Assembly (NCBI RefSeq): GCF_019688735.1
Contig: NZ_JAIFYA010000002.1
Location: 372,001-436,000, forward strand
DNA: 64,000 nt
Source of the DNA: Thermosulfurimonas sp. F29
Lineage (GTDB): Bacteria; Desulfobacterota; Thermodesulfobacteria; Thermodesulfobacteriales; Thermodesulfobacteriaceae
Direction: 5' to 3'
The notes under the pieces were generated by a model, which worked only from the letters and a program-made list of their open reading frames with translations, ran no database searches and was not told where the DNA came from. Positions 4,972 through 18,334 of the stretch are shown one piece after another. Every line of letters begins with the position of its first letter. Within the stretch, counting starts at the first letter, position 1. The position numbers and the translations under genes are program-made.

Positions 4972-5262
4972 TTAAAGGATAAGGTGATCCCCTTCCGGAA
5001 GACGGGTGTGCTTTCCGTAACCCAGGTGCACCACCGGGCGGCGACAGGTCTCACAGAGCCGGTAGTATCGCACCCGATCCTCCAGGGCGTCAATAACTTC
5101 CTCCACCGTCTGTCTCATGACGGCGAACTCCTCCGGCGTTAACCGACATTCGAACACGCTGTAAAGCACCCGTATCCCGAAATCTTCCATTATGCGGGCC
5201 ACCTTTCGGAGCCTCTTTTCGTCGGCGATGTCGTAGCACACGAGGTAGTAGTTCTGTTTCAC
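4972..5262 (-). CDS. cas2: CRISPR-associated endoribonuclease-fold protein Cas2 (second copy)
   Basis: A 96-residue Cas2 with the ferredoxin-like start [17 protein letters not shown], where the Asp of YDI is the family's metal ligand, followed by the conserved VLYSVFEC strand. It has a CxxC pair (RLCETC) near residues 70-75. It starts at a GTG overlapping the stop of the upstream cas2 (GTGA), so translation is coupled. It differs clearly from its neighbour, so the pair is an old duplication or two lineages rather than a recent copy. Cas2 dimers bridge Cas1 dimers during spacer integration; with two versions, homo- or heterodimers are possible. Confidence 0.93.
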
Positions 5263-5546
5263 AGGATCAATTCCTCCGGTGGTTCCTCCGCGAAGTATAC
5301 CGGACCGGTGAATTCAACATTTTGGAGACAGTTCCGGCAGAGGCGGTAAATGCGCACCCGGTCCTCCGTGCGTTTTATGAAGTCCGCAAGCCAGGACACT
5401 ACACTCTCCAGCTCCCTTTCCGTTAGCCAGCACTCGAACACGCTTTTCTGAACCGGTTTGCCGTAATCCTTCAGGAATTTGTGCACCCTTTGCAGGCGCT
5501 TGGGATCCCCTATATCGTACGAGATGATGTAGAACTGCCGATCCAT
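5259..5546 (-). CDS. cas2: CRISPR-associated endoribonuclease-fold protein Cas2 (first copy)
   Basis: A 95-residue Cas2: FYIISYDIGDPKRLQRVHKFL at the N-terminus with the YDI Asp, then VQKSVFECWLTERE, and a RLCRNC Cys pair in the same place as in the second copy. The ATG (5544-5546) lies 12 nt after the cas1 stop. It is the middle gene of cas1-cas2-cas2. Both copies keep the core residues, so neither looks dead. Confidence 0.94.
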   Translation of the reverse strand: MDRQFYIISYDIGDPKRLQRVHKFLKDYGKPVQKSVFECWLTERELESVVSWLADFIKRTEDRVRIYRLCRNCLQNVEFTGPVYFAEEPPEELIL

Positions 5547-5558
5547 GAGGAAATTATA

Positions 5559-6578
5559 TCAAATCATGAATGGACGGTATTCCGGACTCTCACCTTTGAG
5601 TACCCGGGCCAAAAGATATACCTGTTCTCGCAGGATGTCAGCGTACCGGAAGCGCTTTCCCCGGGGAGGATAAAGAGCCTCCTCCTTTAACCTTTCCTGA
5701 AACTGTTTTACGAACTTCTTGAGTCCGGCCCGGCCGAGTTTTACGGGCTGGATCTCCTTCGGTTCTTCCTCGTCCGGAAAGGTCTCCTGAGTGAAGTCCT
5801 CGGGCTTTATGGTCTTCCAGTTCAGGACTCGAATTACCACCGTATCCACTATCACCGGGCGCCATTCCTCCATGAGATCGAGCACCAGGGAGGGCTTGCC
5901 GTAGTCCGGCGAGTGCAGGAACCCCAGGTAAGGATCGAGCCCCGCGGTTTCCACCAGGCTCCAGATCCGGGAAAGGAGGAGGGTATAACCCAGGGAAAGG
6001 AGGGCGTTTACGGGATCTCTAGGAGGGCGGCGGGTGCGTTCGCGGAATTCGAAACCGGATCGTTTGAGGAGGGTCCCCAGTCCCTCGAAGTAGTGACGCG
6101 AGGCCATCCCTTCGATACCGAATATCTCTTCGACATTTTTGGCCGCAGGAAGTTCCGTCAGGGCGCGCTTGAGGTGGAATATCGGACCCTCGAGAGAGGT
6201 TTCCCCCAGTCTCCTTTTCTGACGGACGAGGTATTCCCGCTGGTTGTGAATTTTCCCGTGCACGAAGGCCCTGGCCAGCTGGATCCGCCTGGTCGGATCG
6301 TGAAATGTCCGAAACTGGTGCAGTCTCAACTCTATGTTTTTCCCGAAGGGAGTGGAGAGTTTTCCCAGGTACTTTCCGGAAAGGGTCAGGAAATGGACCT
6401 GTATTCCGCGTTTTAGAAGGGTCTGGAGGGCCGGAGCTGTGAAACTAACTCTTCCGAAGACCACCACCTGATCCACCTCGGCCAGCCTGACCTCTTCTTT
6501 CTTATGGCCGATTTCCAGTTTGAGCCTTTCCCCCTCCCGCGACACCTTTAATCCCTGTTCGGTGAGGTAAAGGATCAT
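5559..6578 (-). CDS. cas1: CRISPR-associated integrase Cas1
   Basis: A 339-residue Cas1, the metal-dependent integrase of spacer acquisition. The N-terminal beta domain starts MILYLTEQGLKVSREGERL; the helical domain holds the conserved NALLSLGYTLL and the active-site stretch GFLHSPDYGKPSLVLDLMEEWRP with its His and acidic residues. I set the start at the ATG at 6576-6578, preceded by GGGAGG. A longer frame upstream only translates CRISPR repeats and is not real. The gene starts 32 nt after the array and is followed by two cas2 genes, so the adaptation genes may be transcribed through the array. Confidence 0.96.
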   Translation of the reverse strand: MILYLTEQGLKVSREGERLKLEIGHKKEEVRLAEVDQVVVFGRVSFTAPALQTLLKRGIQVHFLTLSGKYLGKLSTPFGKNIELRLHQFRTFHDPTRRIQLARAFVHGKIHNQREYLVRQKRRLGETSLEGPIFHLKRALTELPAAKNVEEIFGIEGMASRHYFEGLGTLLKRSGFEFRERTRRPPRDPVNALLSLGYTLLLSRIWSLVETAGLDPYLGFLHSPDYGKPSLVLDLMEEWRPVIVDTVVIRVLNWKTIKPEDFTQETFPDEEEPKEIQPVKLGRAGLKKFVKQFQERLKEEALYPPRGKRFRYADILREQVYLLARVLKGESPEYRPFMI

Positions 6579-6610: not shown

Positions 6611-7572
6611 GTCGCAATCCCTTATTCGTGAGGGAAAGTTTTCTCACAAGCGTGTCGCTTATGCTTGGTGGCGCATAGTTGGATCTGGGTCGCAATCCCT
6701 TATTCGTGAGGGAAAGTTTTCTCACCGTTCGTTACACATGTCAGGAATGCACTCCACTTTACCGTGTCGCAATCCCTTATTCGTGAGGGAAAGTTTTCTC
6801 ACCTTGTGGTTGATCTTTCATGGAGTCCTGCAGTAAGGGGTCGCAATCCCTTATTCGTGAGGGAAAGTTTTCTCACGAAAGTTCGGAGATGGAAAGGTTT
6901 TGCGCCTCCACGCAATCGTCGCAATCCCTTATTCGTGAGGGAAAGTTTTCTCACATTTTTCTCAATATGTTATTCATTTGACAGGTCTCGGTCGCAATCC
7001 CTTATTCGTGAGGGAAAGTTTTCTCACCGGAAGCTTTAACACGCTAGTTTTTACTGATTTTGCTGGGTCGCAATCCCTTATTCGTGAGGGAAAGTTTTCT
7101 CACACTCAGACAACTTCGTCAGGTTGGATTCGCGCTCTCTGCCGTCGCAATCCCTTATTCGTGAGGGAAAGTTTTCTCACTTTCTTTTAAGGAGGTGTGT
7201 CATGGAAGTGTTCAGGGAGGAGTCGCAATCCCTTATTCGTGAGGGAAAGTTTTCTCACTTGGTATAGAGAGGATTTTAGGTGATATTGAAGCCATGATAA
7301 GTCGCAATCCCTTATTCGTGAGGGAAAGTTTTCTCACTTGGGCTAAAAGGGTTTCCAGGAAACTTTATTTGGCTCTACGGAGAGTCGCAATCCCTTATTC
7401 GTGAGGGAAAGTTTTCTCACTCGGACCCTCCTCGGGTAATGATTACTCTAACCTATCCTGTCGCAATCCCTTATTCGTGAGGGAAAGTTTTCTCACTCAC
7501 TCCGAGTGGAAACGCCATCTTGATAATTTTTCTAAGTCGCAATCCCTTATTCGTGAGGGAAAGTTTTCTCAC
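6611..7572 (-). CRISPR. CRISPR array, 13 identical 37-nt repeats, 12 spacers
   Basis: Thirteen identical 37-nt repeats begin at 6611, 6689, 6766, 6840, 6918, 6991, 7067, 7144, 7222, 7301, 7384, 7460 and 7536. Spacers are 36-46 nt and all different. Read on the minus strand, each repeat starts GTGAGAAAAC and ends GGGATTGCGAC. That would give the 8-nt crRNA handle ATTGCGAC, close to the ATTGAAAC-type handle of type III and I arrays, so I assign minus-strand transcription, collinear with the cmr and cas genes. An internal CCCT/AGGG pair (CCTCAC...GTG region) could form a short stem. No degenerate terminal repeat was seen. No cas6 is present in the window, so crRNA processing must rely on a Cas6 encoded elsewhere. 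Confidence 0.98.
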
Positions 7573-7832
7573 AGTATGCTTCGTAACTCCTGTACTTTCC
7601 TGTATTTGTAAATCATACCTCGATAAGGGATAAAGAACCCTCCCCGAAAGCCCCATCGCACCCGGATTCTGCCCCAACTTATTAACAGTAACTCCTCAAG
7701 AAATCACGCAAAATCAAAATTGATGGGGTTCCTCCCCTCAATACCCCAAAAATCACAATTTAATACCGGGTTATAAAACCCTCACGAAAAAAGGGACCCT
7801 TATCGCCCGGTTTTCAAAGAACTATTTATTAA
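7573..7832 (-). promoter_or_regulatory. CRISPR leader region
   Basis: This 260-nt non-coding stretch is richer in A and T than its surroundings and lies between the primase-like gene and the first repeat on the minus-strand reading. With the orientation assigned to the array it occupies the leader position, where new spacers are inserted and the array promoter lies. The other flank of the array has only 32 nt before cas1. I see no strong -35/-10 pair. A fragment near 7778-7790 resembles the repeat's TTCGTGAGGG core. Confidence 0.6.
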
Positions 7833-9599
7833 TTAAAACACATCATCCCCGTCCGGGTAAGGGGTGCGACCCTTCCGGCGTCGGACTGCCACCCGATCGC
7901 CCTCGAGAAAAACGAAATAATCGCCAGCCCGCAGCCTCCCGGAATGCCGCCGTAAGTACTCCCTGAGCTCGTCCTCCAGATGGCAAAGCCTCTCCCGGGT
8001 GTGGAGATAAATCCCGGCCAGCTCCGCAGGAGAACTGTAAGCAAGGGTCAATCTATCCGTCCGCCCGGGAACCAGGTGAGGATCAACATGGAGTAGCGGA
8101 GAAGGATAACGCCCCCTCAAGATCCTCCCGAACACACACCCACAGGGGGTGTCCATCACAAAATCCCTGAACCACGACTCCAGTTTGATGCAGCTTATGG
8201 GATTGCGGGGAACCCCTCTGAACATCCGCTCAAGCCTCGTATAACTGTAGTCCGGAGTGCCGGAAAGAATTCGATGAACCAGCTCCCGGCCGTTGCGCAG
8301 GAATCCCACCGAAAGCATCACCGTAAGCTTTTCCTCCCGGGAAAGACGCCTGCCGGCCTCGGCCCTCCTGATGACCAGATCCACAATCGCGCATGAACGG
8401 CGAAGCCTTTTCAGCTCGGGAGGATCTCCCTCCGGCAGAATCACGGGGGTGGACCGACGACAGAATTCCCTCACTGCTCCCGGAGAAATGGGTCGTATCC
8501 GTTTGAGGAAAGAAAGCTGTTCCGGGTGGGGGACACCTTCGGAATCAACGAAAAGCGAACGCTCAAGCGTGGCCGGATGTATCCCTAAAGGGAGTTCAAA
8601 GCCCTTCTCCAGCCAGCCCACTCCCTCGCCCCGGGTTCCGATTTCGTAAGAATAGAATATCCCCTCACCGGGAAAGGGAAGCCTCTCCTTCAGGGTCTCA
8701 AAAAATCGTCTGACCCAGAGAAAGTAAACCGGCTCGGAAAAGAAAAACCACAACCGATAGCGAAACGGGTTAACCCGCTCCAGCGCACCCTCAAGCCCCC
8801 ACGCCCGAGCCCGATGCCACACCAAAAGGGCCTCCTTCTTTACGGCTTCGGCCTTGATGGCCAGCCAGCCCCGATTACGCCGGTTTCGGTCCACCTCGCG
8901 CTCCGGAAGAGCTATTACGAAATAGGCGCTATGGAGCCTGTTGTCCTCCGTAAGCGGGAAATAAACGAGATAGGTCCGCCCCAGAAGGTGCCGTGAAAGT
9001 TTCTCCGAGGTGGGAGCTCCGTCCCTGATGACGAGAGCGGTCCTTCCGTAAACGGTAATTTGCATCTCGGCATGAAGGGGTCTTCCACGGAAAAGTGTTC
9101 GTAACGGTTCGAGTTCTCGATCCCCGAGATTGGGAGGAAAGTACCTCAGCGGGGTTTCCTGAAATCCGGCCTCGAGAGGCCCGGCCACCGCGGCGGCTGC
9201 TCCGGGGCGCCCCAGCTCCCGCAGCACCTGCGCCAGTTTCCGGCGCACGGTCTGCGAATCGGCCAGCCTCAAAACCCGATAAAAAAGTGTGGCCGCTCGC
9301 GGCAGATCTTCCATTTCATAGGCCACCTCCGCCCGGGCCATAAGATAGCGCGAATTGTCGGGATCACGAGAAATAGCAAGATCGTAACACTCCGCGGCCT
9401 GAGCCTTTAATCCCAGGGCCTCGCAAAGACTTCCCCACCGAAAATATTCCTCGGCCGTTTGTCCGGGGCGCAAACGATGCCGGAGAATTATCTCCCTGGC
9501 CTTGAGATCACGACCCTCCGAAAGAAACTTCTCGGACTTTTCGAGGAACTCGTTCACGATGATACGGCTATTCCCGAAAAATTTTCCGAATCTTTTCAA
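7833..9599 (-). CDS. TPR + primase-polymerase-like protein, catalytic residues apparently lost (CAPP-like)
   Basis: 588 residues. About residues 45-140 look like TPR helices (EEYFRWGSLCEALGLKAQA; AECYDLAISRDPDN). Residues about 185-360 align by eye with the archaeo-eukaryotic primase (AEP) domain of TOTE and CRISPR-associated primase-polymerases: GRTYLVYFPLTEDN, then LWFFFSEPV, ELPLG and SLFVD. Where active members carry the DxD metal ligands (AIDFD) this protein has IALPE (229-233), and the GNGAHVW His position reads PFRYRLW (278-284). Asp352 of SLFVD is kept. The C-terminal part has Cys403, Cys470, Cys486 and Cys488 plus RYPSPLLHVD (498-506), the accessory region seen in CRISPR-linked relatives. 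It sits upstream of the leader, array and cas1, so a role in spacer acquisition is inferred. The start (TTG 9597-9599) is uncertain; GTG at 9555-9557 is an alternative. Confidence 0.72.
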   Translation of the reverse strand: MKRFGKFFGNSRIIVNEFLEKSEKFLSEGRDLKAREIILRHRLRPGQTAEEYFRWGSLCEALGLKAQAAECYDLAISRDPDNSRYLMARAEVAYEMEDLPRAATLFYRVLRLADSQTVRRKLAQVLRELGRPGAAAAVAGPLEAGFQETPLRYFPPNLGDRELEPLRTLFRGRPLHAEMQITVYGRTALVIRDGAPTSEKLSRHLLGRTYLVYFPLTEDNRLHSAYFVIALPEREVDRNRRNRGWLAIKAEAVKKEALLVWHRARAWGLEGALERVNPFRYRLWFFFSEPVYFLWVRRFFETLKERLPFPGEGIFYSYEIGTRGEGVGWLEKGFELPLGIHPATLERSLFVDSEGVPHPEQLSFLKRIRPISPGAVREFCRRSTPVILPEGDPPELKRLRRSCAIVDLVIRRAEAGRRLSREEKLTVMLSVGFLRNGRELVHRILSGTPDYSYTRLERMFRGVPRNPISCIKLESWFRDFVMDTPCGCVFGRILRGRYPSPLLHVDPHLVPGRTDRLTLAYSSPAELAGIYLHTRERLCHLEDELREYLRRHSGRLRAGDYFVFLEGDRVAVRRRKGRTPYPDGDDVF

Positions 9600-9602
9600 T
9601 AT

Positions 9603-9773
9603 TCATAAAATTTCAACATCAAAACCCATTTTTATGTCTCCCCTGACCAGGGAGCCGAAAACGAGGACTCCCAGAAGATTTTCCCCGTAAAACTCCCGAA
9701 TTTTGGGAAAAAATTCTTGAAGTCTGGTTCTTACGATTTTTGTTAGGGGTTTGGGGGAGAGGTTTAGAGGCAT
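9603..9773 (-). pseudogene. truncated minimal nucleotidyltransferase (MNT) fragment
   Basis: A 56-codon frame begins at the ATG at 9771-9773. It reads PKIREFYGENLLGVLVFGSL followed by VRGD, the helix plus GSxxRG motif of MNT-type nucleotidyltransferases. Where a full protein would continue with the SDxDLLV metal-binding strand it has FDVEIL and stops. Full-length relatives are about 100-150 residues; compare the intact gene at 47576. The stop codon lies just before the primase-like gene. I read it as a remnant of an MNT gene cut when neighbouring DNA was exchanged. Confidence 0.6.
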
Positions 9774-9797: not shown

Positions 9798-11045
9798 CTA
9801 AATTCTTTGCCATGGAAAAACAGATTTCCTATATAAATCTTCAAAATTTTCAAACTGGCTTTTACAGATATTTTCCACTTTTTCTCTCAATTCTTCAACA
9901 ATCTCTTTTTTAATCGGAGTTAATCCATGGGCTAATATAGAATTGTTTCTTTGATATAATAAATCCTGAAAATTTTTTATTTCTTTTCCAATTGGATCAC
10001 CCAAATCATTTAATAATTTATAACATTTCCATAGTCCTATTTTATTTTCTTGTTCTAATATTTTTTTCCATTCAGGCAAAAGATCTTTACGAATTATCTT
10101 TTCTTTTATCTGTTCAAAGTTTACATTCGAACTATCTAAGTTATATTTACAAAAAAGAAGAACTTGAGCTATAAGTTCTACAATTCTATATAATCTAGCA
10201 ATAGCATCATCATATTTCCCTTCTTCTATCCGACGATCAGTATTTGCCAATAAATCAGCTATAATTGCTGGATGTTTTTCTTTCTTATAAATTAAATTTC
10301 CAATAAACTTTATATGACTTATTTCTTTCGGGAAAAGTTTTTTTAACTTTTCTTCTTGAACACCTTTTAACTCTTTTTTAGCTTCTTCAAAAAATTTCGC
10401 AGCCTTATGATGGTGAAATAAGTCCCACTCGTGATAACCTCGTATAATGAAATTTAAATATTTTACTTCACTTTTATAATCTGACAATAGATTTATGAAA
10501 TTTTGGATGTCACCAATCAACGAATGTGCAATTTTAAATTGATATTGCAATAAACTTTTATAAGCTAATTCAAATTTGAAATAACTGTTAATAATAAAAG
10601 GTTGAAAAGATACAACTTTTTCAGTACCAGATTTTACAATACCTTTTTCTCTTTTTCCTTGGATATAACTAAGGCGACCTATATCTTTTTGAAAAGCCAC
10701 CATTACGATGGCAGAAGACATAGGTTTAGTTCCAGAAGTAAAATCAGCAATAATTTGGCTAGAATCTAACCCTTTTTTAAATAACCATCTTAGGGCTTCT
10801 TCAGTCTTCTTAACACACTCATTTAAGTCGTTAGGATCTGGAATTTCAAAAAACTTATAATTCCTCGAAGATAGTTTTAACTCCTCAACTACTACTTTAG
10901 CGTTATCTTTGGAATCCTTAGATACAAGAAAAGCAACAAAGTTAGGATTTCTATCAGAAATAGAAAGTTTGATAGCGTTTAAAATACTTTCTGGACTGTC
11001 ACCTATGCCTGTTCCAACTGAAATCAAAAGCCCCTTTTTAAACAT
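9798..11045 (-). CDS. CARF-HEPN CRISPR ancillary RNase (TIGR02710/Csm6-like)
   Basis: 415 residues from an ATG (11043-11045) with a GGGAGG ribosome site. The N-terminal Rossmann-like CARF domain starts GLLISVGTGIGDSPESI and contains DFTSGTKPMSS, the TSGTK-type ligand loop typical of TIGR02710/Csm6-group sensors. The C-terminal helical part ends in RNNSILAH (about residues 366-373), an R-x6-H HEPN ribonuclease motif. The expected role is a non-specific RNase switched on by cyclic oligoadenylate made by the Cas10 encoded upstream. It overlaps cmr6 by 8 nt. The gene is strikingly A+T-rich compared with cmr2-cmr6 and the chromosome around it, a sign of separate acquisition. Confidence 0.87.
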   Translation of the reverse strand: MFKKGLLISVGTGIGDSPESILNAIKLSISDRNPNFVAFLVSKDSKDNAKVVVEELKLSSRNYKFFEIPDPNDLNECVKKTEEALRWLFKKGLDSSQIIADFTSGTKPMSSAIVMVAFQKDIGRLSYIQGKREKGIVKSGTEKVVSFQPFIINSYFKFELAYKSLLQYQFKIAHSLIGDIQNFINLLSDYKSEVKYLNFIIRGYHEWDLFHHHKAAKFFEEAKKELKGVQEEKLKKLFPKEISHIKFIGNLIYKKEKHPAIIADLLANTDRRIEEGKYDDAIARLYRIVELIAQVLLFCKYNLDSSNVNFEQIKEKIIRKDLLPEWKKILEQENKIGLWKCYKLLNDLGDPIGKEIKNFQDLLYQRNNSILAHGLTPIKKEIVEELREKVENICKSQFENFEDLYRKSVFPWQRI

Positions 11046-11949
11046 TCTTGTTAAACCTCCCGTGACCCAAAGCCGTCTTGGCTCCAAAGCCGTGCTCCGT
11101 TAGCGCGGCTTCAAAGGCCTCTCTGACTCTTTTCCGGAACTCCTCTTCCAAATCTTCGTGTATCAGCAGGATAAAACGGAATTTACTTCCGGGAGCCACG
11201 GCCAGGAATGGGAGAGGACGGGGATGTTGGTCCTCAGTGGGGCCTCTTCTTTCTTCGTAATATTCAGGATAATGGCAGGTGATGATCTCCAGGGTAAGCT
11301 CGGGAGGCTCAATCGGCAAAGCATCCAGGAAGACGACTTTGCCTCTTTGGGCTGACTTGCCTTCCTTTTCCATCCTTCCGAAAGGCTTTGAAAGCTCGTT
11401 CCAGAAAAGATTATCTTCCCGGGCCCAGTTTTCAAAAAAGTTCGGATCCTCCTGGGCTTTTTCTACCAGATAGACCAGACGCACCACGCCTTTTATACTT
11501 TCCGCCGGGATGTAGGGAATCCCCAAAGTCCTGTGGAAAGTGAAACCGCGCTCCATAGGATGAGCGTTTCCGAGGCCGATAATGAGGGGAGCCTTAAGGA
11601 TGTAAGTGTTAGCCCACACTTCGTATCCAGAGGCCCTAAAGGCCTGGCAAAGGGCTTCCATCTCTTGATTTTTCCGCTCAAGGAGGCCCTCAAGGTTAGG
11701 CCTGATTTTGTGGTAGGTATCAAGCACTTCTCGGGCCTCTTTTTGCGCCTGGAATTGATACATCGGAAAACGCAGACCTTTTTGGGTGTTCCAGTAAGCA
11801 TAAAGACCCTTGTTAAAGTGAAGACCAAAATTAAATCCCGAGCCTGGATGTTCAAAAAAAGAAGCAAGCTTTTCCGGTAGAGGCCGGAATTTTTGAGGAT
11901 TTTGCTGAACTTTTTGTCTTTGCTCTTTTCTGCGGCCAGGCTTAGGCAC
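11038..11949 (-). CDS. cmr6: type III-B RAMP protein Cmr6
   Basis: 303 residues, the Cmr6 subunit that caps the Cas7-like backbone of the Cmr effector. Features seen: GLGNAHPMERGFTFHRTLGIPYIPAESIKG in overlapping pieces, where IPAESIKG is the family's conserved turn, and the C-terminal Gly-rich RAMP loop GFGAKTALGHGRF. A basic N-terminal tail (about residues 1-20) precedes the fold. GTG start at 11947-11949 behind GGAGG; overlaps cmr5 by 8 nt and the CARF gene by 8 nt. Confidence 0.93.
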   Translation of the reverse strand: MPKPGRRKEQRQKVQQNPQKFRPLPEKLASFFEHPGSGFNFGLHFNKGLYAYWNTQKGLRFPMYQFQAQKEAREVLDTYHKIRPNLEGLLERKNQEMEALCQAFRASGYEVWANTYILKAPLIIGLGNAHPMERGFTFHRTLGIPYIPAESIKGVVRLVYLVEKAQEDPNFFENWAREDNLFWNELSKPFGRMEKEGKSAQRGKVVFLDALPIEPPELTLEIITCHYPEYYEERRGPTEDQHPRPLPFLAVAPGSKFRFILLIHEDLEEEFRKRVREAFEAALTEHGFGAKTALGHGRFNKNV

Positions 11950-12367
11950 CCTTTTCCTCCACGAACATCTTACTCATCACCTTTAGCCACTCAAGGAATC
12001 TCAAAGCTTCTTCCTGTAGGGTGAGATACTCCAGGGCTTCTTTTTGGGAGATTTCTTCAATGGTAGTGGCGGGAGCTTCAGGATCAAAAGAAAGCATATC
12101 TTGGTTTTTGAGCCAGGAAGCCAGGGCTTCAAAGGCAAGCCAGTGTTTGGCCTCTTGGCCTTCTTTTTTGTATCTGCCGTTTTTCTGGTCAGCGGCCTTG
12201 GCCAGAAGGAAACAAAGGGTATGTCCCAGGCCGTTTTGCATGATCATAGCCGGAAGTCCGGCTACAAAGCTCGAAAATTCCTTGGCTCCTCCATCACCCA
12301 GGACTTTAATAGCAGCACGGGCCTTTTCGTAAGCAAACCGGGCCCGCTCCTGTCCCTCAGTTCTCAT
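11942..12367 (-). CDS. cmr5: type III-B small subunit Cmr5
   Basis: 141 residues, all-helical, the small subunit that forms the inner filament of the Cmr complex along the target RNA. Its N-terminal RARFAYEKARAA and the segment FVAGLPAMIMQNGLGHTLCF match the Cmr5 family well, and length and position between cmr4 and cmr6 agree. It shares 4 nt with the cmr4 stop (ATGA), so translation is coupled. Confidence 0.93.
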   Translation of the reverse strand: MRTEGQERARFAYEKARAAIKVLGDGGAKEFSSFVAGLPAMIMQNGLGHTLCFLLAKAADQKNGRYKKEGQEAKHWLAFEALASWLKNQDMLSFDPEAPATTIEEISQKEALEYLTLQEEALRFLEWLKVMSKMFVEEKGA

Positions 12368-13266
12368 GACGCACCTCCTGAAGAGGCATCAGGGGCTATC
12401 CAGTAAACTTTGCAAATACCCTTACCCAGGGTGAAGTCACCTCCTATTTGGATGTGGGTGGCAACCGCATCGATTACCAGAGAAGCTACATCCCGAGGAA
12501 GAAGACGAAGTCCTCCTTCCTTGCATGAGCTATCGGGTTTGCGGTCTTCGGCAAAAAAGCTCAGGAAATAAAGCACGGAATCTGCCGGAAGGTATTCCTG
12601 ATACCGCAAAGAACCTTCTTTGGCCGTGCCGGTGGCATCATCAATAGTTATGTGGGCCTGGACCTCGGTGGCGGTGCGCACGAGATAGCCGAAGACCTCA
12701 TCGGATATGAGGACTGCCTTTTGTAGCTCGGGAAGATTTTTGTTTAGCCAATTCTTGTCATCGAGAGAACTATCCTGAGCTTTCTTAGCCACCAGATCCT
12801 CAAGGACTATCTCATCCGGAAAGGAACCCGTGAGCGGGATAAACTGGTCCTCCTGAACTTCTTTCTGCCCTAAAGAATTTTCTAACCCCAAAAGAGTGAG
12901 GTCTTCGGCAAAGCGCTTGAGCACCGCCGGAGAGGTCACATGCACAAATGGGACCACATTGGAGCGCACGGGGAAGAAAAGGATCCTGGCATCAGTCACA
13001 GTTACCGCCCCGGCCCAGCTGGCTTCTTCACCCGCCTTGCCGAAGATGCAATCCGCAAGATCTTTCCTTAATCCCATTTTCTTCCAGACCTTCTCGCACC
13101 AGTCCCTGAGAGCCCCTTTAATTCCCGAAGCCTGCACCATCGGCCAGGCAGTGTGGCGCTCACGCTGGATGGGAAGGTCCACCGCTTTTAAAGCCTGTCC
13201 GGCTCCGGCATGAATGGGCGTTAGGGCATAAAGAAGACAAAGCCTCTTTTCTTCACCCCAGATCAT
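12364..13266 (-). CDS. cmr4: type III-B Cas7-like backbone subunit Cmr4
   Basis: 300 residues. Cmr4 forms the repeating crRNA-binding backbone and cuts target RNA at 6-nt steps through a conserved Asp in an N-terminal loop; here ALTPIHAGAGQALKAVDLPIQRERHT supplies the expected region, with Asp in AVDLPIQR. QASGIKGALRDWCE is the RAMP motif, and a C-terminal Gly-rich loop reads IQIGGDFTLGKG. It starts at an ATG (13264-13266), 11 nt after cmr3 ends. All features fit an active subunit. Confidence 0.94.
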   Translation of the reverse strand: MIWGEEKRLCLLYALTPIHAGAGQALKAVDLPIQRERHTAWPMVQASGIKGALRDWCEKVWKKMGLRKDLADCIFGKAGEEASWAGAVTVTDARILFFPVRSNVVPFVHVTSPAVLKRFAEDLTLLGLENSLGQKEVQEDQFIPLTGSFPDEIVLEDLVAKKAQDSSLDDKNWLNKNLPELQKAVLISDEVFGYLVRTATEVQAHITIDDATGTAKEGSLRYQEYLPADSVLYFLSFFAEDRKPDSSCKEGGLRLLPRDVASLVIDAVATHIQIGGDFTLGKGICKVYWIAPDASSGGAS

Positions 13267-13277
13267 CTCATTCCTCC

Positions 13278-14297
13278 TTAAAAAGGCATTAGTTCACAAA
13301 GCCCGTAGTCCTCTTCGGTGTAAAATACCGCTCCTGCCGGAAAATAGGCTCTGGCCGGTTTGTGAAAGCCCTTTCTCATGTCCCAGCCGCCCACGCGCAG
13401 GAGTTTGCCCGAAGCGTAAGGAAACTTTAAAAGCCCGAATCTTTCGGCCCGGGTGTAGAGAAGAGGAGATAAAACCAGGACACGACCCCTGCCGTTTTCG
13501 GGAAACTCCGGGATCTCGCTCTCGTTTAGCCTTCGGTAACGCACCAGGCGTCCTTCTCCCCCTAGCTGAAAGACCCCTTCGGCTTTTAAGTGAGAGGGAC
13601 AAAGCGGCTTGTCCAGCCCCACCACAAGAGAAACCTCCGGGGTGAAACGGAGGTGGCGAGAAGCATAAAGATGTCCGGTCTTTACTGCACGACGAATATT
13701 ATCCCGGGCTATTCCAACTCTTTCTTCTGTTCTTATGAGAAATTTGGTGGGCACGGCTAAAGCTTCATCTTCGGAAATATCCCTTAGCTCCCCGGCAACA
13801 TCAAGCTCAAAGCCCCCCTCGTTTTCCAGGGCCTTCCGCGTAAGCCAGAACTTTCCGGAAAGAGGCTCCATGTCCGGAAGGGGTTTTTCTATCCACAGAG
13901 GCTTTTCCCGGGAAAGCTTTACAGGAGGATGTTTTTCGGGCCTGGCCTCCCGCACTTCAAGCCTGTTTCGGCCTTTTCCCACATAAAACCAGCTTGCCGG
14001 CGCGGGAAAAAGGACCACCCCTCGGACTTTAAGAAGAGGCCCCAACACTCGAAAACCGGGCTCCTCGGGGGTGCCCCAGTAAGGCAAATTTTCAAGAGGC
14101 TTGCCTGTCTCTAACCCTTCGGGGGCAATGCCTTTCTGGGCCAGAATGGCTGCACGCAGGGCGCCAATTATAGTCTCCGGCACCGGCGGGAACACAGGCT
14201 TTCCAGCCTCATGGGTTTCGCCGGCCACCATGGGCTCCCCGCCCCGGAAAAAGAGGGTGTCAAGAGGCTTTAGTTCAAGCCACTGTTTTATGTGCAT
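13278..14297 (-). CDS. cmr3: type III-B Cas5-like subunit Cmr3
   Basis: 339 residues, the Cas5-group protein that binds the 5' handle of the crRNA and contacts Cas10. The N-terminal KPLDTLFFRGGEPMVAGE and PPVPETIIGALRAA are diagnostic of Cmr3. A C-terminal Gly-rich stretch (SGKLLRVGGWDMRKGF) corresponds to the RAMP loop. Start ATG at 14295-14297 inside the cmr2 tail (23-nt overlap). Confidence 0.93.
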   Translation of the reverse strand: MHIKQWLELKPLDTLFFRGGEPMVAGETHEAGKPVFPPVPETIIGALRAAILAQKGIAPEGLETGKPLENLPYWGTPEEPGFRVLGPLLKVRGVVLFPAPASWFYVGKGRNRLEVREARPEKHPPVKLSREKPLWIEKPLPDMEPLSGKFWLTRKALENEGGFELDVAGELRDISEDEALAVPTKFLIRTEERVGIARDNIRRAVKTGHLYASRHLRFTPEVSLVVGLDKPLCPSHLKAEGVFQLGGEGRLVRYRRLNESEIPEFPENGRGRVLVLSPLLYTRAERFGLLKFPYASGKLLRVGGWDMRKGFHKPARAYFPAGAVFYTEEDYGLCELMPF

Positions 14298-17094
14298 GGC
14301 GTCGCCATGCCTCCCCTAAAAATCTGGCTATCTCCAGAGCTTCAAAACCTAAATCACTTTCTCCTTGTGGGTATTTTCTTCTACCTAAAAGAACGGCAGT
14401 GACCATTCGGGAGAGTCGGGATACCTCCTCGTGATGGCTTAGCCTCTCGCTCCGAATCTGAGTTCTTATAAATTCGGACACCCTATCCGGTCCCTGATCC
14501 CTCAAAGCCCTGAGCCCTTCGGCCAGTTCCCGTGGACGATAGGCAAAGGAAGAACTGAGCTCTTTGCGGGCAAAGGCCTCCACCAGCTCCCGAAAAGCCT
14601 CCCACACCAAAACCTCTTCGGCAGAAAATTTAACGGTATCCCGAAAACCCGCCACAAAAGTGCGCCTTTCCCCGGCCCGCCGGTGAAGTTCAAGGGCCAG
14701 GGCCGCCCGACCGGAATCTTTGGCCAGGTTAAGTAGCTCATGGGCCCGCTCAACGGCCGCCCTGAGCGGCCACTTGTGATGCACGATGAGAAGCCCACCG
14801 GAGATGGAAATTTTCTCGCCCGGCCCCAGGTGAAGTAGCAAAAGATCGTCGTCGTTTAACTCCGAAGCTTCCCTAATCTCCTGAGTTTCATTCCATAAGT
14901 AAGACATCTTACGGCCCTCACGGATCAGAATAGAGGTCTTCCTGCGGAGTCTTACAAAGGCCCAGTTGTAGGCCTCGCCTATCCTTCGGGCGGCAGAGAT
15001 CGCGGTGGATACCGGAAAGATCGCGCACACATCGTCTCCCCCGGCATAGATGAGCTTTCCCCCGTGGGTCTCAACGAGATAGGGCACGGTGTAGAGGGCA
15101 AAGTGGGCCAGGGCCTGAGAGATGGCCCCATGGGTGGCAGGGGAAAGGAGCCGCCTGCAGGAGAGAAAATCCTGCCAGAATTCCACAAAGTTTTTGCTAA
15201 CCTTACCGTTTCTGATTCTTTCCACCAGTTCGGGATGCAGAACGCTTTCCCATGTTGCGGCAAAACCTCCGGAAAGAAGTTTACCCATCCGGTCTCCGTC
15301 CATAAGGAGAATGGCATAGTAGCGATCCTGAAGAAGGATCTCATCCCCCCGGTCTTTCCGACGAGAGAGGAGTTTTTCTACTTTGTTACGGATTTCCTTT
15401 TCTTCTCCTTCGGGTATTTCTTCTATTTCGTTCTTTTCGCGGGCCTCTTTTCGGTGAAGTATCTCGGCAACTTCTCTGGAGGATAGCCCCAGCTCTTTCA
15501 TGTCCTCTTCCGCCCTGTTAAGCCACTCGCTTAAGGCCATTTCCGTGCTGGAGGGAAACTTCTCCGCCTCTTTGAAAAAGGAATAAAGTGGATGCCCATC
15601 CGATACTGCCCGATAGGCCAGGCGTTTTATGAGGGCTATGGCGGAGAGCCTTTCGGTATCCTTAAACTCGGATTGAGGAAAGGCTTTGCGGATTTTTTGC
15701 CAGCAGGGATCTTCCCTAGGCCGGGGGTTGGGGTCGGGGCGGCGCTCGGGATGAAGAAGACACTTTTCCATCCCCGCCTCCGCACACTCCACACACGAAA
15801 ACCTCAGGGCCTCAAGATCCGGATGCAGGTGGCATTTGACACCCGGCTCCTCGGCCCGGGTGTTTGGCGGGGAGAGCTTTTCCGCGGCCAGCCCCCGCGC
15901 CAGAAGATCGTGAGAAGCCGGATAAAAGAACTTTTCGGTGAGATTAAGATAGGGAAAATTTTTCTTCCTGGCTTCCTCAAGATAAGCCCTAAGGGATACA
16001 ACCAAATTTTCGGGAATAAAATCCTGCCCTTTATTTAGAAGGCTTTCGTCGAGCAAGGGCACGGCCGTCCAGTGGAACTCCCAGAAGTGTTCGGTTTGGC
16101 GTGAAAAAATCTTTTTAAAGGCGATAAGGCACTCCGCAGGAACCTTTCCGAAGGCCCTTTCTTCAACAAGATTTCGTACCCTCTCGGCAAGGTCAAGCCA
16201 GACTCCTTTTACGGTCTCTTCTATCTTTTTAGCAGTATTTTTTTCCTCACCCTCAGGGACCAGGAAGAGAAACTTATTGGGAAGGGTGGCGGCACGAGTC
16301 TCCCGCTGATAGCGTTCGGCCCATTCTCCGAAACCGCACTTTTCATCAAGCCGACTTTCAATTAAGGCCTGGTCCACGGGAAAGGGATAGATAATGTGGT
16401 CTGAACCGTAAAGGCAGATTACCGTCCAGAGGCCTTCTGAGGCCAGCCAGGAAAGGATGAGCGAGGCCGTCCAATAATCGCGAAGCTTGCGCGAGCGGGC
16501 GATAAAGTTCTGGACCGGGGTGAGGCTGAAAAGCATGAGGGAGGCCTTTCGGTTTGAGGAAAGCCTGTAGCAGGAGTAAAGGGCCGAGGTTAGCGCACAG
16601 TGTTGCCAGATGGAGTGATCCGGGAGGCGGGTATCTGCCGGGAGGTAATGCCAGCGCCAGGAAAGCCCTCCTATATTTTCCTTCCCCAGGCGCCAGGGAA
16701 GCACATGGCGGAAGTAGTGAAAGACGGAAAAGAAGTCGTTTAACCTCTGAGTATCATGTTCTACCAGGCGGGTTAATGATTCTTCTGCTCCGGTGGAAAG
16801 GGAACGAAGATCAAAGGCTTCGATTTTCCCTGTGGGATGGGTGATGCGAGGATGGTGGGGAAATTCTATCTGTCCTCCTTCTTCCCTTCGGGGAAGAAAG
16901 GTTCGATCCAGCCCCGAGGCCACCTGGTCGGCCTTTTTGAGGAGGGATTCTTCAGCCGAAATATAGAGTATATCCTTTAAGCGAGCCGCCCGGCTTACAT
17001 GCTCCCTGATGGAGAGGGCTTTGTCCGGCGGATCGTGAAGAAAAACGGCAAGCTTCTCCCGCCAGTATTCTTCACTTCGCTTAAAGGCACTCAT
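14275..17094 (-). CDS. cmr2: type III-B Cas10 subunit Cmr2 (cyclic oligoadenylate synthase)
   Basis: 939 residues, the large Cas10 subunit. The N-terminus has FLHDPPDK with His20-Asp21, the Cmr2 HD-like motif that in relatives can cut single-stranded DNA. A Cys-rich zinc region lies about residues 420-455 (CHLH, CVEC, CLLHP). The palm domain has YAGGDDVCAIFP near residue 684; GGDD is the cyclase motif that makes cyclic oligoadenylates. An earlier palm segment reads ILLMDGDRMGKLLSGG. Together with the CARF-HEPN gene downstream this indicates working second-messenger signalling. It overlaps cmr1 by 14 nt and cmr3 by 23 nt. Confidence 0.96.
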   Translation of the reverse strand: MSAFKRSEEYWREKLAVFLHDPPDKALSIREHVSRAARLKDILYISAEESLLKKADQVASGLDRTFLPRREEGGQIEFPHHPRITHPTGKIEAFDLRSLSTGAEESLTRLVEHDTQRLNDFFSVFHYFRHVLPWRLGKENIGGLSWRWHYLPADTRLPDHSIWQHCALTSALYSCYRLSSNRKASLMLFSLTPVQNFIARSRKLRDYWTASLILSWLASEGLWTVICLYGSDHIIYPFPVDQALIESRLDEKCGFGEWAERYQRETRAATLPNKFLFLVPEGEEKNTAKKIEETVKGVWLDLAERVRNLVEERAFGKVPAECLIAFKKIFSRQTEHFWEFHWTAVPLLDESLLNKGQDFIPENLVVSLRAYLEEARKKNFPYLNLTEKFFYPASHDLLARGLAAEKLSPPNTRAEEPGVKCHLHPDLEALRFSCVECAEAGMEKCLLHPERRPDPNPRPREDPCWQKIRKAFPQSEFKDTERLSAIALIKRLAYRAVSDGHPLYSFFKEAEKFPSSTEMALSEWLNRAEEDMKELGLSSREVAEILHRKEAREKNEIEEIPEGEEKEIRNKVEKLLSRRKDRGDEILLQDRYYAILLMDGDRMGKLLSGGFAATWESVLHPELVERIRNGKVSKNFVEFWQDFLSCRRLLSPATHGAISQALAHFALYTVPYLVETHGGKLIYAGGDDVCAIFPVSTAISAARRIGEAYNWAFVRLRRKTSILIREGRKMSYLWNETQEIREASELNDDDLLLLHLGPGEKISISGGLLIVHHKWPLRAAVERAHELLNLAKDSGRAALALELHRRAGERRTFVAGFRDTVKFSAEEVLVWEAFRELVEAFARKELSSSFAYRPRELAEGLRALRDQGPDRVSEFIRTQIRSERLSHHEEVSRLSRMVTAVLLGRRKYPQGESDLGFEALEIARFLGEAWRRHAHKTVA

Positions 17095-18334
17095 TTATAC
17101 CTGCTCTCTGCATGGCCTGATCAAGCCGCTCGTGAACTTTTTGCCAGATTTCTATCTGTTGTTTTTTTGAAATCCATTCAACTTTTTCATTAGATTTCGA
17201 GTAAAGTTTCGGATCTAAATAATACGGAAGATGTAAAACGAAAACTTTATATATATTAGAATATTTTTTAACCAAAAAACGAAGAGGCGAAGCTAATCTT
17301 GCATCCGGGACATACTTATTCTTCTTCTGGCTCCATTTTCCCCAGCCGACATTTACCGCAGGATGATTAGTTAAAGGAAAACCTAAAAGATGTCTTTCTG
17401 CTATATTGTGCGTGCCATCTGGATCTAATTTTGTTTTTTTAGGCCAATTATATTCTTCAGGTACATAACCTGTGCGCACATAAATATAAACTTCTGCAAG
17501 AAATTTCAGGGCCTCTTGCCAAGATTTAAATTTCTCTGCCTTCCATAAAAGTATTTTGCCTTCATGATCTGTTGCCAGAGTGTGAGGGTGAGGCTTATCA
17601 AAGCAATCTTTCCAGTAAGGCAAACTTCCCTTCAGCCCGTCTTTGAGTTTTAGGATACAACTTTCAGGTTCTATCCCTTCCACCTGAAAACTTCCCCAGC
17701 CGTTGCGGGAACGGGAGCCGACAGCTCCGAAAGCCCGAAAGTAAAGGAGGGCGGTCTTAAAGATCTCGGCTTCTTCATTATCTTCCAGAAGATATTCGGG
17801 GACTCCCATGTTTAGCGTAAAAGACTCTCCCGGAGCGAGATAGGAGCGTCTTACTCTAAAACCGTCTGAATAAAAAAGGCCCATTCCTCCCAGGTAAGAA
17901 AAAGGAGAAATTTCATGCCTTTTTTGGCAATCGGCTTTCTTTTTGTATCTACAAGTGGGATTTTCTTTAAGACATTCTTTAGGGCAAAAATCCACTTCTG
18001 GATGAACCACATAATTTTCTTTTTTAGAAATTACGTCTTTAGTGGACTCTACTTCCCCTTCAACCCAGATCCTTACCAGACTCTTTTGGGCCTTTTCTCC
18101 CCCGCCGCCGAAAAATTCCGTTTCTCTCTCCAGTAACTCTTTATGATCCTTCACCCTGCTTCCTGCGGCCACCCGCCACCAGTAGCGCAGAAGGCCTTTG
18201 AAGGGTGCAGCGCGCAGGGCCGCCTCCTGCCACGCATCGCCCAAGAACATGGGCGTTACGATGCGGCAGGTGAGAATAAGAATTGCGCGGTTTTCGAACC
18301 TGCGGCGAAGAAACTCGCCCCCCTTGACCCCCAT
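17081..18334 (-). CDS. cmr1: type III-B RAMP protein Cmr1
   Basis: 417 residues, first gene of the cmr operon. Cmr1 sits at the head of the effector and helps capture the 3' side of target RNA. Diagnostic segments: CRIVTPMFLGDAWQEAALRAAPFKGLLRYWW in overlapping pieces near the N-terminus, FFGGGGEKAQKSLVRIW, and FGAVGSRSRNGWGSF in the middle. A Cys-containing insert (DFCPKECLKENPTCRYKKKADC, in pieces) about residues 110-135 may bind metal. The middle and 3' part is noticeably A+T-rich, like the CARF gene and unlike cmr2-cmr5. No ribosome site fits the ATG at 18332-18334. Confidence 0.93.
   Translation of the reverse strand: MGVKGGEFLRRRFENRAILILTCRIVTPMFLGDAWQEAALRAAPFKGLLRYWWRVAAGSRVKDHKELLERETEFFGGGGEKAQKSLVRIWVEGEVESTKDVISKKENYVVHPEVDFCPKECLKENPTCRYKKKADCQKRHEISPFSYLGGMGLFYSDGFRVRRSYLAPGESFTLNMGVPEYLLEDNEEAEIFKTALLYFRAFGAVGSRSRNGWGSFQVEGIEPESCILKLKDGLKGSLPYWKDCFDKPHPHTLATDHEGKILLWKAEKFKSWQEALKFLAEVYIYVRTGYVPEEYNWPKKTKLDPDGTHNIAERHLLGFPLTNHPAVNVGWGKWSQKKNKYVPDARLASPLRFLVKKYSNIYKVFVLHLPYYLDPKLYSKSNEKVEWISKKQQIEIWQKVHERLDQAMQRAGINECL

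Follow-up and report, generated by a model that had tools for sequence, protein, structure and literature searches.

A CRISPR-associated primase-polymerase homologue with an apparently erased active site, maintained across a clade of loci with paired cas2 genes

Catalytic CRISPR-associated primase-polymerases (CAPPs) are believed to produce prespacers, or to complete them, through DNA synthesis. The closest described relatives of the gene reported here are the CAPPs of type A with the TPR architecture (Marinitoga MpCAPP and MsCAPP; NCBIfam NF040561; PDB 7nqd, 7nqe, 7nqf and 7p9j), which follow a TPR-AEP-C-terminal domain (CTD) plan with conserved CTD cysteines and are encoded directly beside cas1 and a single cas2 in a type III setting. 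The D177A/D179A mutation abolishes the activity of MpCAPP (PMC8211822), mutations in motif I or III ablate Prim-Pols generally, and E260 is the third metal ligand of the Marinitoga CAPP (PMC10345425). Prim-Pol domains without detectable activity are also kept in a CRISPR adaptation protein in two CART-CAPP (RT-CAPP) fusions, where they are explained by the fused, active reverse transcriptase (RT) that does the work (PMC10415136).

We analyzed a homologue of these proteins, termed here the pseudo-primase, in a window of 64,000 nucleotides from Thermosulfurimonas sp. F29 (Desulfobacterota; contig NZ_JAIFYA010000002.1). The gene order is cmr1-cas10-cmr3-cmr4-cmr5-cmr6-CARF/HEPN, pseudo-primase, leader, 13-repeat array, cas1, cas2, cas2, so that the gene does lie between the effector operon and leader-array-cas1-cas2-cas2, as had been proposed from the sequence (Table 1). 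The open reading frame runs from 9599 to 7833 on the minus strand, which the original prediction left unstated, and the plus-strand frame over 7833-9599 contains many stops. An intact gene of 588 codons had been described; the open reading frame is confirmed with 588 codons from a TTG, but alignment with relatives places the likely start at codon 15, a GTG at 9557, which gives 574 aa. Residue numbers below refer to the 588-codon frame.

Table 1. Features of the pseudo-primase locus in the window, with strand and basis of assignment.
Feature	Position	Strand	Basis
Type III-B effector operon cmr6, cmr5, cmr4, cmr3, cas10, cmr1	11038..18334	-	
CARF-HEPN gene (Csm6-like, TIGR02710), directly upstream of the pseudo-primase	9798..11087	-	
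Pseudo-primase, dead CAPP-A1 homologue, 574 aa from GTG 9557	7836..9557	-	NCBIfam NF040561; alignment with relatives
TPR region, residues 19-140 of the 588-codon ORF	9180..9545	-	Pfam TPR matches; AlphaFold2 helices
AEP domain, catalytic site erased, residues 176-372	8484..9074	-	Pfam AEP-TOTE, 39 bits; AlphaFold2 model matches CAPP 7nqe, TMt 0.85
Motif I position, V228-I-A230 replacing D-x-D	8910..8918	-	
Motif II position, Arg282 replacing His; Arg in 29/30 dead-type proteins	8754..8756	-	
Motif III position, Ser317 replacing the catalytic Glu (E260 of Marinitoga CAPP)	8649..8651	-	PMC10345425
Clade-specific signature T322..G326..W329-x-E331; catalytic CAPPs have Q...GNLxK there	8607..8636	-	
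C-terminal domain with four invariant Cys (C403, C470, C486, C488) and RYPSPLLH, residues 396-508	8076..8414	-	
Presumed leader between pseudo-primase gene and array	7573..7835	-	Position only
CRISPR array, 13 repeats of 37 nt and 12 spacers of 36-46 nt	6611..7572	-	
cas1, catalytic E156, H222 and E237 kept	5559..6578	-	Pfam PF01867
cas2-alpha (RVQKSVFEC type)	5259..5546	-	Pfam PF09827; tree
cas2-beta (RVLYSVFEC type)	4972..5262	-	Pfam PF09827; tree

The pseudo-primase belongs to the family by profile, since NF040561 (CAPP type A1) scores it at 263 bits against a cut-off of 200, and it is encoded beside cas1 and cas2. The plan of TPR helices, AEP core and cysteine-bearing C-terminal region that had been read from the sequence is present in full, and Pfam matches together with an AlphaFold2 model indicate the TPR-AEP-CTD architecture and Prim-Pol fold of CAPP type A1. 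The model, built from 10 sequences with a mean pLDDT of 84, found the solved CAPPs 7nqe, 7nqf and 7p9j as its first structure matches (TMt ~0.85, E 6.5e-11), with 7nqe the best in the PDB. The CTD gave no match in Pfam, PDB-sequence or Foldseek searches. According to the model, the protein has retained the family fold, but it has very probably lost the chemistry.

Alignment with the Marinitoga CAPP core (7nqf) places D177 and D179 of MpCAPP at V228 and A230 and the motif II histidine at R282; we located E260 in the E-I-F-P-K-Q / E-V-F-P-K-Q motif by counting from D177, a position at which the pseudo-primase has S317. Motifs I (DxD), II (xxH) and III (E) of CAPP type A1 are thus replaced by V-x-A, R282 and S317, in agreement with the apparently dead active site of the original prediction. 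Also absent is the NTP-binding stretch FPKQ...GNLxK...PLGxH, which hardly varies among catalytic relatives. Because all three motifs are lost, we file the protein as a dead CAPP-A1 homologue and not as a primase-polymerase, and because mutants of such residues are dead (PMC8211822, PMC10345425), we infer the loss of catalysis with high confidence; judged from its sequence, the protein is very probably non-catalytic. Asp352, in SLFVD, had been taken to be the one surviving ligand. This does not hold: the position is variable among catalytic CAPPs, with an aspartate in only 7 of the 32 catalytic relatives, and we therefore rejected it as a residual catalytic ligand. None of the three metal ligands survives, and the site is therefore deader than had been thought. 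None of the three ligand columns is acidic in the pseudo-primase, and 29 of the 30 dead-type proteins have at most one acidic residue in these sequence columns, rather than two or more.

To place the loss among relatives, we ran the family profile over 395 genomes of the host phylum and then fetched the loci. Among 55 near-complete proteins, 23 lack the DxD and 32 have it. In a tree built after the four trait columns had been masked, a single branch with 100/100 support separates these two groups. Seven more proteins without DxD were found later, which brings the number sampled in the phylum to 30. The DxD is missing from all of these 30 relatives, and the complete triad is present in all 32 sister proteins of the same alignment, which rules out chance or misalignment; because the loss is clade-wide, we also rejected a sequencing error or a peculiarity of the host genome. 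The best explanation is that catalysis was lost in the ancestor of a clade that is spread across the phylum. A scan of all GTDB, limited to two strict peptide patterns, returned 11 loci, nearly all titled as the host phylum or deltaproteobacteria, and dead CAPPs may also occur more widely. No dead relatives were found on viral contigs and plasmids, and the single plasmid match (Halobaculum) was set aside as a DxD-type AEP.

Within the dead clade, the DxD is replaced by VxA, SxS, AxR, SxQ, QxF, ExE, HxR and others; no replacement is common to all, which fits the expectation for released sites. At the same time, R282, T322, G326, W329 and E331 have been gained as near-invariant residues. The mean pairwise identity of the AEP domain is lower in the dead clade than in the catalytic proteins (0.34 versus 0.43), whereas that of the CTD (0.49 versus 0.38) and of the TPR region (0.35 versus 0.23) is higher. 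In the AEP domain of close pairs, dN/dS was ~0.08-0.16, which indicates purifying selection; the values are approximate because dS is high in most pairs. The dead CAPP is almost certainly maintained by selection, and the combination of lost catalysis with a maintained gene is well supported.

The loci of the dead clade share a second trait. Both a cas2-alpha and a cas2-beta gene were present in 29 of 29 dead-CAPP loci with enough sequence, even where the gene order differs. These comprise 21 loci of the first set (three with a broken CAPP), one locus whose Cas2 pair lies on another contig of its genome (L145, genome G066) and all seven fetched later; four loci (L013, L053, L096 and L106) are truncated at a contig end and were uninformative. 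Catalytic-CAPP loci had one Cas2 in 31 of 31 cases, 22 of which have >500 bp of further downstream sequence. The Cas1 proteins likewise split into dead-CAPP and catalytic-CAPP sets, with their own catalytic residues intact. Because the link between the Cas2 pair and catalytic loss rests on one tree branch, it is not statistically independent evidence. The clade-wide loss with its own signature and the alpha/beta Cas2 pairing are both points that the original prediction had missed, and we found no description of such a pair in the open-access literature, of which coverage was incomplete.

When the 395 genomes were searched for Cas2-beta, 21 had high-scoring matches, and 20 of these are dead-CAPP genomes; the remaining genome (G004) has an orphan cas2-beta with cas1 and CAPP absent nearby. 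In another species of the host's genus, an orphan cas2-beta with 82% identity lies beside argB (L144:9648-9920), and cas1, CAPP and array are absent from its neighbourhood. Lower-scoring tandem Cas2 pairs led to further modules. CAPP-less tandem cas2 pairs after or beside cas1 are widespread in the phylum (L153-L158, L160-L163, L165, L168, L169, with further loci L171, L175, L178 and L179), and in two loci an RT-Cas1 fusion gene is followed by two cas2 genes (L177:223-2850 and L180:4983-7565). We therefore rejected the Cas2 pair as specific to the pseudo-primase as a general rule. No two-Cas2 module with an adjacent catalytic CAPP occurred among those sampled. A CAPP-less clade of 16 members lies nested within the dead-CAPP group of the Cas1 tree (83/74 and 94/90); a single dead-CAPP Cas1 clade was not rejected by the AU test (p = 0.136), and the Cas2 tree, built from short sequences, is too poorly resolved to place the CAPP-less clade. 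These results point to a likely series from a catalytic CAPP with one Cas2, through a dead CAPP with two, to two Cas2 alone. The existence of the CAPP-less modules implies that the pseudo-primase is dispensable somewhere, and a heterodimer of Cas2-alpha and Cas2-beta may represent a separate theme.

We propose that the pseudo-primase, a CAPP-A1 homologue, has been retained for a structural, non-catalytic function in the CRISPR adaptation complex, as a scaffold of the Cas1-Cas2 integrase, a reading to which we give a probability of about 60%. Points against it are the CAPP-less two-Cas2 modules, the broken copies of the gene in L102 (there together with cas1), L104 and L105, the CTD without a match among known folds, and the single tree branch behind the link to the second Cas2. 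That the protein belongs to the adaptation complex is in itself probable. A structural role is inferred from the conservation described above and from MpCAPP, whose residues 1-360 (TPR+AEP) bind Cas1 and whose CTD binds Ago and itself (PMC8211822). Docking is therefore already a second function of the AEP part in MpCAPP, and the simplest reading would be that the dead clade retained this docking platform and dropped the polymerase. By analogy with the Marinitoga protein, the TPR-AEP part of the pseudo-primase would dock on Cas1, a role that we consider somewhat better than an even bet. The Cys4 C-terminal domain, the best-conserved part and likely the working end of the protein, would hold a partner or a nucleic acid, either DNA or RNA. 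The Cas2 alpha/beta pair may form an asymmetric integrase, within which the pseudo-primase would position or protect prespacer DNA; DNA fill-in, if any, would be done by host polymerases. Repeat numbers as high as 48 to 83 in arrays beside dead-CAPP modules suggest that adaptation has worked.

A more specific conjecture follows from the pair. If Cas2-alpha and Cas2-beta form an obligate heterodimer, the integrase would be asymmetric and one pseudo-primase could mark one prespacer end. Such one-sided recognition of a single end or strand might fix the order and direction of spacer insertion in type III systems; the polymerase would have been given up as the second Cas2 arose, with the pseudo-primase later becoming dispensable in a further lineage. 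We regard this extended scenario as doubtful.

Some other explanations were considered alongside the structural role. The synthesis could be carried out in trans by a host or other CRISPR polymerase, the dead CAPP being a loading platform or a redundant leftover. The inactive Prim-Pol domains of the two CART-CAPP fusions provide a precedent (PMC10415136), Pol I or Pol III of the host is available in every case, and an RT occurs somewhere in 8 of 24 dead-CAPP genomes. However, the other 16 have no RT, 20 of the 24 have no second AEP-TOTE locus, and no polymerase gene was found to recur beside dead-CAPP loci. The host genome (99.95% complete) contains neither an RVT_1 match nor another AEP-TOTE match, which rules out these two candidates in that genome, and we consider synthesis in trans unlikely as a whole. 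We give still less credence to the view that the gene is a remnant under slow decay, carried along in the operon until it is lost. Three CAPP copies are indeed broken (L102, L104 and L105), two are very degenerate (L106 and L107), and the CAPP-less two-Cas2 modules appear nested among dead-CAPP Cas1s, but a dN/dS of ~0.1, about 30 largely intact open reading frames across many families, the newly gained near-invariant residues and the higher conservation of the CTD and the TPR region relative to the catalytic proteins speak against decay, and even the CAPP of L107 keeps the four cysteines and RYPSPLLH.

Two further readings, both very improbable in our estimation, concern the emptied site itself. 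The protein could still be an enzyme, with metal ligands or other chemistry shifted to acidic residues such as E274, E331 and D219; position 331 has newly become acidic in all 30 dead-type proteins, and E274 and D219 are retained from catalytic ancestors, yet all three residues lie outside the established catalytic triad, and nothing is left of the FPKQ, GNLxK and PLGxH signatures. Alternatively, the former pocket could bind a nucleotide or signal, for example a cyclic oligoadenylate, and link the capture of spacers with signalling by the adjacent CARF and Cas10 proteins. The genes directly upstream, a CARF-HEPN gene and a type III operon that includes cas10, would be a suitable setting, and R282, T322, W329 and E331 form a new conserved cluster at the former pocket. 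However, Pfam recognised no ligand-binding domain, and the CARF-HEPN gene also adjoins many catalytic CAPPs and therefore does not track catalytic loss.

Compared with CAPP type A, then, the pseudo-primase lacks the DxD, the histidine, the motif III glutamate and the NTP-binding signatures, has a conserved signature of its own and is accompanied by two cas2 genes instead of one. Inactive Prim-Pol domains were already known in RT fusions. Unlike the CART-CAPPs, the pseudo-primase stands alone and has TPRs, and RVT_1 is absent from the protein as well as from the host genome, which makes it a distinct case. Primase-related subunits without catalysis are also known in PriL/Pri2 and PriX, and a review proposes a role like that of Pri2/PriX for the CAPP CTD (PMC10345425), but the host genome has no catalytic AEP-TOTE partner, and Pfam, PDB-sequence and Foldseek searches gave no support for a PriL-type identity of the four-Cys CTD. 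In its proposed role, the pseudo-primase would resemble accessory adaptation proteins such as Cas4 or Csn2 in helping to set the ends or the orientation of prespacers (Cas4: PMC9048733), although their folds are unrelated and Cas4 is a nuclease. The RT-Cas1 modules of L177 and L180 share the tandem cas2 pair after cas1, but they encode a reverse transcriptase, lack a CAPP and occupy a distant position in the Cas1 tree.

An entire clade in which the protein persists without its chemistry implies a second, non-catalytic job, one probably shared with active CAPPs and masked there by the polymerase activity. Why RT-CAPP fusions keep an inactive Prim-Pol domain (PMC10415136) thus becomes testable in a simpler, RT-free protein. 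The alpha/beta pair suggests a heterodimeric Cas2 with built-in asymmetry, and the proposed role, if true, would be relevant to the control of spacer ends and orientation in type III systems.

Several minor observations were made at these loci. Directly upstream of the pseudo-primase, a 56-codon open reading frame (9603-9773, minus strand) carries a GSLVRGD motif like that of a truncated minimal nucleotidyltransferase, with no Pfam match at E 0.1. The within-array standard deviation of spacer length was slightly larger beside dead CAPPs (median 1.71 versus 1.33, p = 0.04, kinship not corrected), an effect too weak for spacer length to serve as a functional read-out. In L079, the gene immediately upstream of the catalytic CAPP encodes TPR repeats (L079:6101-7822); it recurs in 18 catalytic loci and in none of the dead loci. 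In one locus, a single open reading frame (L070:7934-10021) joins a dead TPR-AEP to the C-terminal part of Cas1, without the CTD end and the Cas1 N-terminus, either by in-frame deletion or by misassembly. The closest relative, from Thermosulfurimonas dismutans S95 (L102), is 66-89% identical in pieces; both its CAPP and its cas1 are broken, and its array has five repeats. The most degenerate member (L107:8060-9403) has lost R282 and D352 as well, and adjoins an array of 83 repeats.
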